Part shown: piece by piece, positions 48,318 through 53,562 of the stretch
Layout: each line of letters opens with the position of its first letter
Numbering within the stretch: the first letter of the stretch is position 1
DNA from: Ancylobacter gelatini
GTDB taxonomy: Bacteria; Pseudomonadota; Alphaproteobacteria; Rhizobiales; Xanthobacteraceae
Direction of reading: 5' to 3'
Length of the DNA: 64,000 bases
NCBI RefSeq assembly: GCF_022601675.1
Contig: NZ_JAKVIL010000004.1
Location: 248,001-312,000, forward strand
Program-made: the position numbers and the translations under genes
The notes under the pieces: model-generated
The model's input: the letters and a program-made list of their open reading frames with translations, nothing else
Told to the model about the DNA's origin: nothing
Database searches by the model: none

Positions 48318-48361
48318 CCCCCGGCGAGACGCGCTTGGCGGTTCTGCCCGGCGCCTCCGTT

Positions 48362-48436
48362 CCCTGATAGCTCAGTTGGTAGAGCGTTCGACTGTTAATC
48401 GAATGGTCGCAGGTTCGAGTCCTGCTCAGGGAGCCA
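48362..48436 (+). tRNA. tRNA-Asn (GTT)
   Basis: 75-nt cloverleaf. Acceptor TCCCTGA pairs fully with TCAGGGA, anticodon loop CTGTTAA with anticodon GTT, T-loop GGTTCGAGTCC, discriminator G and CCA encoded. Its 3' end served as the attachment site of an integrative element (see the remnants that follow). Confidence 0.97.
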
Positions 48437-48441
48437 CTCCC

Positions 48442-48455
48442 CCGTTACCGGGGCG
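48442..48455 (+). terminator. Possible terminator of tRNA-Asn
   Basis: CCCCG / CGGGG 5-bp stem with a TTAC loop, six bases after the tRNA; TTTT appears ten bases further on. Weak. Confidence 0.35.
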
Positions 48456-48569
48456 GCTCAGCTTTTCCCAAAGAGCTCTCCTACCCATCGAAATTGCTGG
48501 ATAATTTGATTTCCAGCCTCCGCTCGCTGTCCCAGCCGGGATCGGCCAGAGCCACCTCATCCCGCGAAT

Positions 48570-48591
48570 TTGTTGGCCTTGTTGTTGGCCT
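48570..48591 (+). repeat. Tandem TTGTTGGCCT repeats upstream of the integrase remnant
   Basis: The 10-mer TTGTTGGCCT occurs at 48570-48579 and 48582-48591 (12-bp period), between tRNA-Asn and the integrase start. Position and spacing fit arm-type binding sites of a tyrosine recombinase; this is inference. Confidence 0.5.
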
Positions 48592-48637
48592 GCAGGCCGT
48601 GTTTTCGTGATCCCAGCGATCAGCAGGGAGAGCGAAC

Positions 48638-48741
48638 ATGGCCTTGTCAGATGCCGCGTGCCGGACGGCCAAAGGCCGGGACGGCGAATACAAACTTTCC
48701 GATGGTGGCGGCCTCTATCTTTTCGTGAAGCCTGCGGCCGC
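48638..48741 (+). pseudogene. Tyrosine integrase, 5' fragment (arm-binding domain only)
   Basis: MALSDAACRTAKGRDGEYKL followed by SDGGGLYLFVKPAA is the start of a P4-type/DUF4102 tyrosine integrase, the arm-DNA-binding domain. Similarity stops after about 34 residues, at 48741; the frame continues out of register with the family to 48826. A full protein would be about 400 aa, so about nine tenths, including the catalytic domain, are gone. It has its own Shine-Dalgarno (AGGGAG) and stands 200 bp after tRNA-Asn in the usual orientation for an integrase next to its attachment site. Confidence 0.85.
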
Positions 48742-48749
48742 TCAGGGAG
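48740..48749 (+). repeat. Ten-base copy of the tRNA-Asn 3' end at the deletion junction
   Basis: GCTCAGGGAG here is identical to 48424-48433 in the acceptor arm of tRNA-Asn. It lies exactly where the integrase and MFS fragments meet, so it may be an att-like site, or microhomology used for the deletion. Confidence 0.6.
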
Positions 48750-48865
48750 AGTTCCGCCTGCATGAGCGGCAGTGCGGCCATGATCGCCGTGCTGTTGGCG
48801 CCAACGGCCAGCATCGCCAGGCATGACGACCACAAAACCAGCGATAAGATTGTCTGCCGCTTCAA
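48740..48865 (-). pseudogene. MFS transporter, 5' fragment
   Basis: On the minus strand from TTG 48865: KRQTILSLVLWSSCLAMLAV then GANSTAIMAALPLMQAELSLS, the first membrane helix of a 14- or 12-TMS MFS multidrug transporter. Similarity ends at 48740, the same point at which the integrase fragment ends. A full protein would be about 400-480 aa. The codons LSLS are CTC TCC CTG AGC, that is, the 10-base sequence shared with tRNA-Asn. It is divergent from the esterase gene, its likely original partner. Confidence 0.8.
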
Positions 48866-48970
48866 CGCCTACACCACGACCGCGCGCCCGGTATATTGCT
48901 ACTCATGACCGCGAAGCCGTCGACAGCAGATCTTCGGCTTTCTCGACGGGAAAGGGTTTGGGAGCGTGCC

Positions 48971-49882
48971 ATGGACAGCGACATTGACGACCTGAAGACG
49001 CTTTTCACCGCGAAGCCACGCCCTACCAGTTGGGCCGAGCGGCGCGCGCGCATGGACGAGATTTGCGCCATCGATCCGCCGCCTGCCGACATCGTCTTCA
49101 CGCCCTTTGCCATTGGCGGCATTCCGGCCGAATGGTCGCTAGCCCCCGAACGCGATGCAGCGCGGGTTCTGCTTTATTTCCACGGCGGCGGCTATTGCGC
49201 CGGATCGATCGGCAGCCATCGCGCCATGGTCGGCGGGGTCGGCAAGCTCGCAGGCATCCGCACGCTCGCAATCGACTATCGGCTTGCGCCGGAGCATCCC
49301 TATCCCGCCGCTCTGGAGGATGCGCTTGCCGCATGGCGCTTCCTTGGCGAGCAGGGCTACACGCCGCAATCCATAGCCATTGGCGGCGACAGCGCTGGCG
49401 GCAATCTCACCTTGGCGCTACTGTTGAGGCTGCAGGCCTTAGGCGAGCCCCTGCCGGCTGCGGCCTGGCTAGTCTCGCCCTGGCTGGACCTGCAGATGAC
49501 GGGAGCCACCCTTGACAGCAAGGCCGACATCGATCCGCTGATCAGCCGTGACTACCTCACCGGGCTCGCCACCGCTTTTCTCGCGGGCCATGATCCGGCC
49601 GATCCGGCGGTTTCACCGCTCTACGCGGATTTCACCGGCCTGCCCCCTGTCCTGATCCAGGTCGGCTCCAGCGAGACGCTACTCGACGACGCCGTGCGGG
49701 TAGCCGGCGCGCTTGGCGCCGCCGAGGTCCACGCCACGCTGGAGATATGGCCGCGCATGATCCATGCCTGGATGCTGTGGTCTGGCAGGCTCGCCGACGG
49801 GCAGGCTGCCAGCGCCCGCGCGGGAGAATGGCTATGTCGGGCCCTGCGTCCAAAGCTGTCGCAGCAGGAACGCGACGGCTGA
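48971..49882 (+). CDS. Alpha/beta hydrolase, hormone-sensitive-lipase (acetyl esterase) family
   Basis: Cytoplasmic carboxylesterase of 303 aa. The HSL-family oxyanion motif YFHGGGY (HGGG 71-74) and the nucleophile motif GGDSAGGN (Ser141) are intact; Asp lies in GSSETLLDDAVR and His in RMIHAWMLW, so the triad is complete. ATG 48971 has GGGAG at a good distance; an in-frame ATG at 48905 lies only eight bases after a -10-like TATATT (48892-48897), which makes the longer form unlikely. It probably formed a divergent pair with the MFS gene whose remnant lies upstream. Confidence 0.9.
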   Translation: MDSDIDDLKTLFTAKPRPTSWAERRARMDEICAIDPPPADIVFTPFAIGGIPAEWSLAPERDAARVLLYFHGGGYCAGSIGSHRAMVGGVGKLAGIRTLAIDYRLAPEHPYPAALEDALAAWRFLGEQGYTPQSIAIGGDSAGGNLTLALLLRLQALGEPLPAAAWLVSPWLDLQMTGATLDSKADIDPLISRDYLTGLATAFLAGHDPADPAVSPLYADFTGLPPVLIQVGSSETLLDDAVRVAGALGAAEVHATLEIWPRMIHAWMLWSGRLADGQAASARAGEWLCRALRPKLSQQERDG

Positions 49883-49942
49883 CCGGCGCCCGACGGAGTG
49901 TGACGGGAGCTTGGGACGGACTTTGCCGAGGTCATAACAAGG

Positions 49943-49977
49943 CCCGGCCGGCAGCACGGAACATGCTGCCGGCCGGG
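49943..49977. terminator. Bidirectional terminator between esterase and SDR gene
   Basis: Perfect 14-bp stem CCCGGCCGGCAGCA / TGCTGCCGGCCGGG with loop CGGAACA, between two convergent genes. Confidence 0.85.
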
Positions 49978-50008
49978 ACGAACCTCGTGCTTTTACGGCC
50001 GGCCCCGC

Positions 50009-50821
50009 TCAGGCCGGCACGGCGAGGCCGTAGCGGGCGGCGGGATGGGCGAGTGACAGGCGGGGCCACAACGCCATGCGCGCCGCGGCCAGACCGTCCC
50101 ACTCCCCGGCATCGGGCAGCGAGGGAATGGTGATGGCCTCGCCAAGATCGAGCCCGGCCAGCGCGCCATCGACCAGTTCGTCCACCGCCATGAACACCTC
50201 TGCCGGCAGGTGGCTGAAATCGAGGCCGGAATTCTCGAAGAACTCGGTGCGGGTCAGGCCCGGCAGCACCGCCTGAATGCGAAGCTCGGGCCGGTCCTTG
50301 AACTCGTTCTGCAGGGACTGGGTCAGGTTCAGCACATAGGCCTTGGTGGCGCTGTAGGCGCCGAGCAGGTTTTCCGGCATCAACGCCACCACCGAGGCGA
50401 TGTTGATCAGCGTGCCGCCGCCGCGCGCGGCAAAGGCGTTCACCGCCGCCACCGACAGCTGGCTCAGCGCCACGACATTGACCTGCACCATCGCATCGAT
50501 GCGTGCGGCTTCGGCACCAAGCACCGGGCCTTCCGTGCCGACGCCCGCATTGTTCACCAGCAACGAAATGGCAGCGTCATCCGTGACCCGCGCGACCAGA
50601 CGCGCGACGTCGGCAGGGTTGCCGAGATCGGCCGGCAGCACCTCGACCTTGCGCCCTGTCTCGCGCACCAGTTCGCCCGCGAGTTCCTCAAGCCGCGCCT
50701 TGTTGCGCGCGACCAGCACGAGATCATGGCCACGGCTGGCCAGCCGGCGCGCATAGACCTTGCCGATGCCGGACGAGGCGCCGGTGACGACGGCCGTTCC
50801 CTTGGTAGCGTTGGTGTTCAT
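50009..50821 (-). CDS. Short-chain dehydrogenase/reductase
   Basis: NAD(P)-dependent oxidoreductase of the classical SDR family, 270 aa. The cofactor motif TGASSGIG (13-20), NNAG (90-93), catalytic Ser143 and Y-S-A-T-K (Tyr156, Lys160) are all intact. ARNKARLEELAGEL after the second strand, with Arg39, suggests NADPH preference. Substrate unknown. The frame begins at 50896, but GGAGA directly before ATG 50821 sets the start. It is divergent from the photolyase. Confidence 0.92.
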   Translation of the reverse strand: MNTNATKGTAVVTGASSGIGKVYARRLASRGHDLVLVARNKARLEELAGELVRETGRKVEVLPADLGNPADVARLVARVTDDAAISLLVNNAGVGTEGPVLGAEAARIDAMVQVNVVALSQLSVAAVNAFAARGGGTLINIASVVALMPENLLGAYSATKAYVLNLTQSLQNEFKDRPELRIQAVLPGLTRTEFFENSGLDFSHLPAEVFMAVDELVDGALAGLDLGEAITIPSLPDAGEWDGLAAARMALWPRLSLAHPAARYGLAVPA

Positions 50822-50967
50822 GACAATCTCCATTTCCAGCGCGGCGACGGCCGCTCTCTTCGTTTTCACATTATGATCATCATTTTTAATTCTCAAGTCT
50901 CAATTGAACGGTTTTCGCCTGGCCTGCGTATAAGAACGATGCCACTGACCCGCGCCCGAGGGACCTG

Positions 50968-52449
50968 ATGACCGACGCCCTTCCCTCGCCCACCGGCCGC
51001 CCCGATCGCCCCGCTCTCGTCTGGTTGCGCGACGATCTTCGCCTGGGCGACAACCCGGCACTCGCCGCCGCCATCGCCTCGGGCCGGCCGGTGCAGTTGC
51101 TTTATGTGCTGGACGAGGAAAGTCCCGGCCTGCGCCCGCTGGGCGGGGCAGCGCGCTGGTGGCTCGGGCGCGCGCTCGCGGCGCTGGAGCGCGACATCGC
51201 GGCGCATGGCGGCCGGCTGTTGCTGCGGCGGGGTGCGGCCGGGGCGGTGATCGCCGCGTCGGTCAAGGAGATCGGCGCCGCCACGGTCTATTGGAATCGG
51301 CGGTACGGCGCGGCCGAGATCGCGGTCGACACCGCGCTCAAGGCCGAGCTGCGCGCGCAGGGCGTCCTCGTGGAGAGCTTCGGCGCCACGCTGCTGCACG
51401 AGCCGTGGACCGTGCTGACGCAAGCCAGAAGCCCCTACAAGGTCTTCACCCCATTCTTCCGTGCCGCGGCGAGCCAGCCGATGCGCGCGCCGCTCCCGCG
51501 CCCCACCGGCAACGGCTGGCTGCGGCCGGCAGCGGACGCACCGCCGGGCGAAGCGCTCGCCGACTGGCATCTGGAGCCCTCGCGCCCCGACTGGGCGGGC
51601 GGGCTGCGGGAGGCCTGGCAACCGGGCGAGGACGGGGCACGGGCGGCGCTGCACGCCTTCCTCGACCATGGCATCCACGGCTATGCGCAGGGCCGTGACG
51701 TGCCGGGCCGTGCCAATGTCTCACGGCTGTCGCCCTTCCTGCGCTTCGGCCATATCTCGCCCCATCAGGTCCTTGCAGCGCTGCGCCATGCCGAGGCCGC
51801 TGGCGAGGTGGCGGCGCCGGATGCGGCCAAGTTCACCAGCGAAATCTACTGGCGGGAGTTCTGCTACCATCTGATGTTCCATCTGTCGGACATCGCCGCG
51901 ACCAATATCGACCGGCGCTTCGACGTGGTGGAATGGCGCGACGACGCCACGCTGGAAACAGCATGGCGCAAGGGGCTCACCGGCTATCCCATCATCGATG
52001 CCGGCATGCGCCAGCTCTGGCGCACCGGCTGGATGCACAACCGGGTGCGCATGCTCGCCGCCTCGTTCCTGATCAAGCACGGGCTCACCGACTGGCGACA
52101 CGGCGAGCGCTGGTTCTGGGACACGCTGGTGGATGCCGATGCCGCGAATAATCCGGCGGGCTGGCAATGGGTCGCCGGCTGCGGGGCGGATGCCGCGCCG
52201 TGGTTCCGCATCTTCAATCCCGTGACGCAGGGGGAGAAATTCGATCCCGAGGGCGCCTATGTCCGCGAATTCGTGCCGGAACTCGCAGGGCTGCCGCCGC
52301 GCCTGATCCACCGGCCATGGGACGCCGATGCCGCGACGCTCCGGGCCGCCGGCGTGGAACTCGGCCGGACTTATCCGCGCCCGATCCTGGATCTGGCCGC
52401 CGGAAGAACGCGGGCGCTGGAGGCGCTGGGGTGCATTCGCGGCGAATGA
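50968..52449 (+). CDS. phrB: Deoxyribodipyrimidine photo-lyase
   Basis: Light-driven repair of cyclobutane pyrimidine dimers, with FAD and a second antenna chromophore. 493 aa: N-terminal photolyase domain (LVWLRDDLRLGDNPALAAAI) and C-terminal FAD domain with SRLSPFLRFGHISPHQVL, YWREFCYHLMFH and IDAGMRQLWRTGWMHNRVRM, ending DAANNPAGWQWVAGCGADAA. The Trp chain and FAD-binding residues seem intact, which fits a class I CPD photolyase better than a cryptochrome. ATG 50968 follows GAGGGACCTG. It is 81 bp before cysK. Confidence 0.95.
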   Translation: MTDALPSPTGRPDRPALVWLRDDLRLGDNPALAAAIASGRPVQLLYVLDEESPGLRPLGGAARWWLGRALAALERDIAAHGGRLLLRRGAAGAVIAASVKEIGAATVYWNRRYGAAEIAVDTALKAELRAQGVLVESFGATLLHEPWTVLTQARSPYKVFTPFFRAAASQPMRAPLPRPTGNGWLRPAADAPPGEALADWHLEPSRPDWAGGLREAWQPGEDGARAALHAFLDHGIHGYAQGRDVPGRANVSRLSPFLRFGHISPHQVLAALRHAEAAGEVAAPDAAKFTSEIYWREFCYHLMFHLSDIAATNIDRRFDVVEWRDDATLETAWRKGLTGYPIIDAGMRQLWRTGWMHNRVRMLAASFLIKHGLTDWRHGERWFWDTLVDADAANNPAGWQWVAGCGADAAPWFRIFNPVTQGEKFDPEGAYVREFVPELAGLPPRLIHRPWDADAATLRAAGVELGRTYPRPILDLAAGRTRALEALGCIRGE

Positions 52450-52530
52450 CGCGTCTCGCCGGTTGCCGATCCGGTTCCACGACACTAATTTCGTGAACCT
52501 TTTCGCAACGCGCAGAACCCAAATCATCCC

Positions 52531-53562
52531 ATGGACATCCGCAACGGCCTCGTCGAATCGATCGGCAATACGCCGCTCATCAAGCTGCAACGCGCCTCGG
52601 AAGAGACCGGCTGCACCATTCTCGGCAAGGCGGAATTCCTCAACCCCGGCCAATCGGTGAAAGACCGCGCCGCGCTGTTCATCATCAAGGACGCGGTGGC
52701 GAAGGGCCTGCTCAAGCCGGGGGGCGTCATTGTCGAGGGCACGGCGGGCAATACCGGCATCGGCCTCGCGCTGGTCGGCAACGCGCTCGGCTTCCGCTCG
52801 GTGATCGTGATTCCCGAAACCCAGAGCCAGGAAAAGAAGGACATGCTGCGCCTTGCGGGCGCGGCGCTGGTGGAGGTGCCTGCGGTCGCCTATGCCAACC
52901 CGAACAACTATGTGAAGGTCTCCGGCCGCCTTGCCGAAGCCCTGGCGAAAACCGAGCCGAACGGGGCGGTCTGGGCCAACCAATTCGACAATATCGCCAA
53001 CCGGCAGGCCCATATCGAGACCACCGGCCCGGAAATCTGGGACCAGACCGAGGGTGAAATCAGTGGTTTCGTCAGCGCGGTCGGCACCGGCGGCACGCTG
53101 GCGGGCTGCGCCCTTGCGCTCAAGGAGCGCAATGCCCGCATCAAGATCGCCCTCGCCGATCCGTTCGGCGCCGCGCTCTATTCCTATTACACCACCGGCG
53201 AACTGAAGGCCGAAGGCTCCTCGATCACCGAAGGCATCGGGCAGGGCCGCATCACCGCCAATCTCGAAGGCGCGCCGATCGATATCGCCTACCAGATCCC
53301 GGACGCCGAGGCGGTGCAGATCGTGTTCGACCTGCTCGAATATGAGGGCCTGTGCCTGGGTGGATCATCCGGCATCAATGTCGCCGGCGCGATCCGCCTC
53401 GCGAAGGAACTCGGCCCGGGGCACACCATCGTCACCGTGCTGTGCGACTTCGGCACCCGTTACCAGTCGAAACTGTTCAACCCCGACTTCCTGCGCGAAA
53501 AGGGCCTGCCCGTTCCCGGCTGGCTGGAGCGCAGGATCGAATTGCCGAGCGTGCTGGTGTGA
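52531..53562 (+). CDS. cysK: Cysteine synthase A
   Basis: PLP enzyme making cysteine from O-acetylserine and sulfide. 343 aa. The PLP lysine is Lys44 in NPGQSVKDRAA; the Asn/Thr substrate loop is VEGTAGNTGIGLA and the phosphate cradle SAVGTGGTLAG. It belongs to the longer bacterial form related to cystathionine-beta-synthase-like enzymes (SPG-type end LCLGGSSGINVAGAIRLA). The stop codon overlaps the next start (TGATG), so it is coupled with the alanyl-tRNA editing gene, and sseA follows: a sulfur/cysteine operon. Confidence 0.94.
   Translation: MDIRNGLVESIGNTPLIKLQRASEETGCTILGKAEFLNPGQSVKDRAALFIIKDAVAKGLLKPGGVIVEGTAGNTGIGLALVGNALGFRSVIVIPETQSQEKKDMLRLAGAALVEVPAVAYANPNNYVKVSGRLAEALAKTEPNGAVWANQFDNIANRQAHIETTGPEIWDQTEGEISGFVSAVGTGGTLAGCALALKERNARIKIALADPFGAALYSYYTTGELKAEGSSITEGIGQGRITANLEGAPIDIAYQIPDAEAVQIVFDLLEYEGLCLGGSSGINVAGAIRLAKELGPGHTIVTVLCDFGTRYQSKLFNPDFLREKGLPVPGWLERRIELPSVLV

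Follow-up and report, generated by a model that had tools for sequence, protein, structure and literature searches.

The element whose trace is described here belongs to the integrative mobilizable elements and genomic islands that carry P4-like tyrosine integrases and reside in the 3′ ends of tRNA genes. It resembles them in the type of site, in the integrase domains of its relative in the congener G010 and in the attachment cores repeated in G008, G009 and G020; it differs in that only the left end is present in the window (the whole 64-kb stretch of DNA analysed), where integrase, relaxase and right end were not found. Grounded prophages and decayed islands (PMC6379469) are similar in that, as we understand the concept, the recombination module is lost after insertion, leaving an immobile remnant; the remnant in the window is distinct in comprising only ~300 bp and in being fused to a second broken gene. 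This second gene is akin to DHA2-like drug-efflux MFS transporters (EmrB type), as its relative in G025 matches PF07690 (TIGR00711, EmrB, stays below the cut-off), but only the first ~41 codons are kept in the window, and these do not make a transporter. A literature search yielded no report on Ancylobacter that deals with both integrase and tRNA-Asn, nor one joining integrase, tRNA, genomic-island remnant, pseudogene and microhomology; the papers retrieved treat islands, prophages or defence in general. The locus represents what is left of an element of known type, at a tRNA gene behind which comparable remnants are frequent in the genus; a single illegitimate deletion most likely produced it.

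The window lies on contig 15 (402 kb) of its own genome (G000), which was compared with 29 congeneric genomes (n = 30 including G000). A sequence-only reading had described the region behind tRNA-Asn as a scar left by an integrative element that has almost vanished, in which the 5′ fragments of an integrase and of an MFS gene are broken at the same base, about 48740. That two 5′ gene fragments meet there was confirmed, the two homologies abutting within ~9 bp at a distance of ~300 bp from the tRNA gene (Table 1). The shared endpoint itself holds for the MFS side, which ends at 48742, but not for the integrase, the homology of which already stops at ~48732. The junction interval between them includes the palindromic GCGGCCGC. 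From the end of the tRNA gene to position 48732, the G+C content is 0.591, as compared with 0.672 for the whole window.

Table 1. Features of the tRNA-Asn locus and its right-hand surroundings (window coordinates).
Feature	Position	Strand	Basis or remark
tRNA-Asn(gtt)	48361..48436	+	Integration site; ARAGORN
Attachment core TGCTCAGGGAGCCA, tRNA 3′ end	48423..48436	+	Presumed limits; 14-mer recurs in G008, G009, G020
Island left end	48437..48637	+	48437–48732 92.2–92.6% identical to G009, G010, G016, G019, G020
GTTGGCC repeats (two) in island left end	48572–48578, 48584–48590	+	Candidate arm-type sites
P4-like tyrosine integrase, 5′ fragment, ~32 of 423 codons	48638..48732	+	Weak PF13356; DNA match to intact integrases
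Junction interval	48733..48741		Homology limits; 0 to ~5 bp shared, or a few filler bases
GCTCAGGGAG, 10 of 14 core bases	48740..48749	+	Inside Leu-Ser-Leu-Ser codons of the MFS fragment (minus-strand reading)
DHA2-like MFS transporter, 5′ fragment, ~41 of 448 codons	48742..48865	-	DNA identity to G025, G004; protein identity to L066
Abhydrolase_3 esterase, intact	48971..49882	+	PF07859, E = 5e-55
Short-chain dehydrogenase (SDR)	50009..50896	-	Start of right-hand block common to congeners
Photolyase, then PALP/cysK-like gene	50968, 52531		Right of SDR; right-hand block common to congeners

Both fragments were assigned by comparison with intact relatives. The ORF at 48638 matches PF13356 (Arm-DNA-bind_3) with E = 1.7e-4 and 22.1 bits, which is under the 27-bit Pfam cut-off, and covers only the start of the arm domain, whereas the complete integrase of G010 (423 aa) contains all three domains, PF13356, PF22022 (Phage_int_M) and PF00589 (Phage_integrase). 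A complete integrase gene is absent at the locus. In a DNA search, the homology stopped at 48732 in G009, G010, G016, G019 and G020, and also in G002 and G025; other endpoints were 48725 (G013), 48741 (G005) and 48747 (one G008 copy). When the whole G000 genome was queried with the G010 integrase, the stump (residues 1–36) and four paralogues of 31–64% identity were retrieved, two of them on contig 14 (58%, and 64% over residues 1–148) and two weaker ones (31 and 39%); the remainder of the integrase to which the stump belongs was not found. The contig 14 site (G000:C14:410142-424692; L044, L047) consists of tRNA-Phe followed by the related open-frame integrase (58%) and, 14 kb further, by the one whose match is restricted to residues 1–148.

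The minus-strand fragment, taken alone, gave no convincing Pfam match (best DUF7048, E = 0.12) and contains no full MFS domain. At the DNA level, however, positions 48742–48835 share 88% identity with an MFS gene of G025 that is intact (448 aa) and whose product matches PF07690 with E = 2e-46, and 84% identity with one of G004; at the protein level, 32 residues of the fragment are 94% identical to a sequence from L066, an alphaproteobacterial MAG. By DNA identity and this short protein match, it is probably orthologous to an MFS transporter. The rest of that gene was not found in G000, where the G025 protein as query gave one match at E ≤ 1e-20, with 28% identity. The gene is rare: among the 30 congeneric genomes, close orthologues occur in G025 and G004 only, and in a sample of 397 genomes drawn evenly from the order, matches at E ≤ 1e-80 were present in three, G025 and G004 not among them.

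In support of the proposed scar, congeners carry intact or near-intact versions of the element at the same tRNA gene, and the missing parts of both genes are not found in G000. The search for relatives with an intact island at tRNA-Asn, which the sequence-only reading had suggested, was successful, for example, in G010, where the integrase is followed by genes for a Fic-like protein, a TraA/MobQ relaxase, QatABCD and BrxD/SngB-like and SngC-like proteins. Judged from these genes, the G010 element appears to be an island that can be mobilized and that carries anti-phage functions. The corresponding locus (L031; G010:C1:2014501-2034500) is a likely anti-phage hotspot. Relatives of the G010 integrase were also present at nine viral-contig loci, one with 77% identity over residues 1–375 (L135) and the others with 32–47%; the tRNA-Asn island family may have a phage-related origin. 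Including the tRNA gene, the window sequence up to 48732 is 94% identical to that of the five congeners listed in Table 1 for the island left end. The photolyase-cysK region is only ~74–79% identical to its counterpart in most congeners, exceptions being G018 (two pieces, 68 and 84%) and G021 (second piece, 84%). The much higher identity of the island end (92–94%) indicates that it was acquired after the species split, and it thus moved between species after their divergence. The scan from the tRNA to 53.6 kb covered four intact genes (esterase, SDR, photolyase and PALP-family gene), none of which is a relaxase or transfer gene.

The island left end directly abuts the 3′ end of tRNA-Asn, as in an insertion at a tRNA gene with a defined core. 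Away from any tRNA, the 14-mer TGCTCAGGGAGCCA also precedes a second left end of the island in G008, G009 (with one base different) and G020. In the window, no second core with three or fewer mismatches was found between the tRNA and 54.3 kb, the sole copy being the tRNA's own, which indicates that the right end of the island is gone or has diverged past this threshold. The 10-mer GCTCAGGGAG at the junction, which had been recognised as identical to part of the tRNA-Asn 3′ arm, does occur in exactly two copies in the 64 kb (48424 and 48740; 0.17 expected). Sharing of at least nine core bases is seen in ~0.035% of 30-bp stretches (both strands, longest match, the site itself counted), and the chance of the exact 10-mer, given Leu-Ser-Leu-Ser and the local codon usage, is ~0.9%. 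The 10-mer had also been considered a natural part of the MFS codons; it does lie within the MFS coding sequence, but the intact MFS genes of G025 and G004 lack it. It is, therefore, notable, yet part of MFS coding sequence. Among 19 other breakpoints, from 13 eroded island copies, none was flanked within 60 bases by a core match of at most three mismatches; a core word with four mismatches accompanied one breakpoint in G008, and an exact 7-base core word lay within 15 bases of one in G026, the others having words of 3–5 bases.

The best explanation for the scar, and one in which we have considerable confidence, is insertion of an island followed by a deletion with one end within the integrase and the other within the MFS gene. 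After the species split, the lineage would have acquired an integrative, mobilizable island whose family has tRNA-Asn as a recurrent target; one deletion would then have fused codon ~32 of the integrase with codon ~41 of the MFS gene on the right, taking with it most of the integrase, the body and right end of the island and most of the MFS gene. What would be left is an inert remnant, consisting of the intact tRNA gene, ~200 bp of island end and two stumps that code for neither integrase nor transporter; with the integrase truncated, excision by the remnant itself is not expected. The MFS gene and the esterase may have been either cargo of the island or flanking chromosome. A deletion, rather than an inversion, is indicated because searches of G000 did not recover the remainder of either gene; after an inversion, the missing halves should still be present. 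We infer that a single deletion was the cause, and that end-joining or short-homology repair, not the integrase, made the junction. The integrase copy of G008 reads ...GGCGCCCAGGGC where the window reads ...GCGGCCGCTCAGGGA, so that CAGGG could be sequence shared at the joint; the bases just before CAGGG match poorly between the two. The intact island followed by the MFS gene and the esterase, that is, the state before the deletion, was not seen in any congener examined.

Of the two mechanisms originally offered, deletion is thus favoured, whereas recombination between the tRNA site and a look-alike site in the MFS gene cannot, by itself, place integrase codon 32 against MFS sequence. A version of the latter that can do so invokes the integrase recombining the right attachment site of the island with GCTCAGGGAG in the MFS gene, whereby the intervening stretch was excised, and a second deletion that began at integrase codon 32 and stopped immediately before the core, removing the island. 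It would account for the 10 of 14 core bases at 48740–48749 and for the order on the right side of the junction, where the core look-alike is followed by the 5′ part of the MFS gene; the rarity of the 10-mer in the window and the 7-base core word near one breakpoint of G026 point the same way. Nevertheless, it is an unlikely course of events: it requires two events, the second of which would have to stop, by chance, within ~7 bp of the core, and for this reason plain deletion is preferred. Moreover, the bases to the left of the 10-mer do not (by eye) resemble those preceding the second cores in G009, G020 and G008, the MFS coding sequence already accounts for the 10-mer, and the other 19 breakpoints, apart from the 4-mismatch word in G008, offer no comparable core match. 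A role of the integrase at the junction is therefore possible, a 10-bp core match being unlikely at a random place, but not favoured. That the integrase used a cryptic core-like MFS site off-target, so that the element, prior to losing its integrase, deleted both its flank and a portion of a host gene, is quite improbable; if true, off-target activity of a tRNA-directed integrase would be a source of host gene loss.

The junction could also mark a breakpoint of the large rearrangement through which tRNA-Asn and the SDR-photolyase-cysK block became neighbours in this genome. In G000, G003, G006 and G018, tRNA-Asn and the photolyase gene are 2.5 to ~29 kb apart and in the same orientation, but in ten genomes (G002, G010, G011, G012, G015, G016, G019, G020, G023 and G026; G012 counted across the record start) they are ~500–760 kb apart and divergent; in the remaining 16 they are on separate contigs. 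In G000, furthermore, the permease and tamAB genes (named from their translations), which frequently flank tRNA-Asn and the photolyase gene elsewhere, are on contigs 17 and 10. Despite these observations, we rate a rearrangement breakpoint as quite unlikely, since in G003, G006 and G018, which share the neighbourhood, no integrase or MFS fragment of this sort was detected, and searches of G000 for the second half of either gene found none. As the arrangement is common to genomes without the junction, it does not need the junction, which is a later or separate event. An inversion breakpoint, considered on the basis of the genes flanking tRNA-Asn and photolyase in G011, was rejected likewise, the shift in neighbourhood being real but common to congeners that lack the junction. 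The least credible of the explanations is an assembly artefact, in which unrelated sequences were joined by the assembler: apart from the palindromic sequence in the junction interval, which would be in line with it, the join is far from the ends of its 402-kb contig, the remainder of neither gene was found in a 99.8% complete assembly, and similar stumps are present in other assemblies. Irrespective of the junction, the arrangements of the four and the ten genomes suggest a large inversion with one end beside tRNA-Asn (window 48361–53562). In G003, the stretch from tRNA-Asn to SDR (L029:12950-17541) carries, by size and order of the translations, Cas2-, Cas1- and Cas9-like genes.

The MFS gene had been thought to have originally been divergent from the esterase, which could not be shown. 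In eight of ten congener loci, the esterase gene stands beside aspartyl-protease-like and PhnC-like genes (names from translation), neither neighbour being seen at the short esterase loci of G021 and G023. The esterase of the window stands alone, outside this setting, so that it must have moved or been reacquired. For the MFS gene, 18 loci were compared (L061–L078, of which L061–L063 extend only ~1.5 kb to each side), leaving aside 36 further loci with matches of 30–35% identity (L079–L114). Esterase homology was present at one of the 18 (L063, 53% identity), upstream of the MFS gene and in the same direction; an intact divergent MFS/esterase pair, which had been sought as an arrangement lacking the integrase, was seen at none.

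Island erosion at tRNA-Asn is ordinary in the genus. The tRNA gene is present in all 30 genomes, and in 16 of them (G000, G002, G005, G007, G009, G010, G012, G013, G015, G016, G017, G019, G020, G024, G025 and G026) it is directly followed by a left end that could be recognised as belonging to this island family. Within the first 3.2 kb after the tRNA, on which the assessment is based, the integrase is broken or gone in 13 of these 16 copies: the ORF is intact in three (G010, G016 and G020), (near-)full-length but with a frameshift or stop in two (G009 and G019); the remaining 11 copies have lost part of it, by truncation or internal deletion, or all of it. In the three copies away from the tRNA (G008, G009 and G020), the integrase is likewise broken. 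The breakpoints of the truncated tRNA-adjacent copies are mostly different and range from position 115 to 1347 of the G010 reference, those near 218–253 (G007, G012, G024 and G026) being blurred by low identity. At the joints of the internal integrase deletions in G005, G008, G017 and G020, at most a few bases are shared (by eye). In G012, the island must also be nearly lost, because the permease gene, the usual right-hand neighbour, is within ~1 kb of the tRNA; G011 and G014, in which it is ~260 and ~340 bp away, look like empty sites. The locus in the window, taken alone, is a small scar, and its worth is comparative: the same tRNA gene in 30 related species is followed by islands that are intact, frameshifted, internally deleted, tandem or nearly gone, and as their breakpoints mostly differ, the order and mode of island decay become countable. 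The comparison also marks out short ORFs behind tRNA-Asn in this genus as stumps and not genes. For the segment comprising the tRNA end and the island end (48430–48480), two hairpins are predicted (-21.6 kcal/mol, z = -3.05), and of the tRNA and island end taken together, G015 retains only the initial ~115 bases; this suggests that the island may be the source of a terminator for tRNA-Asn.
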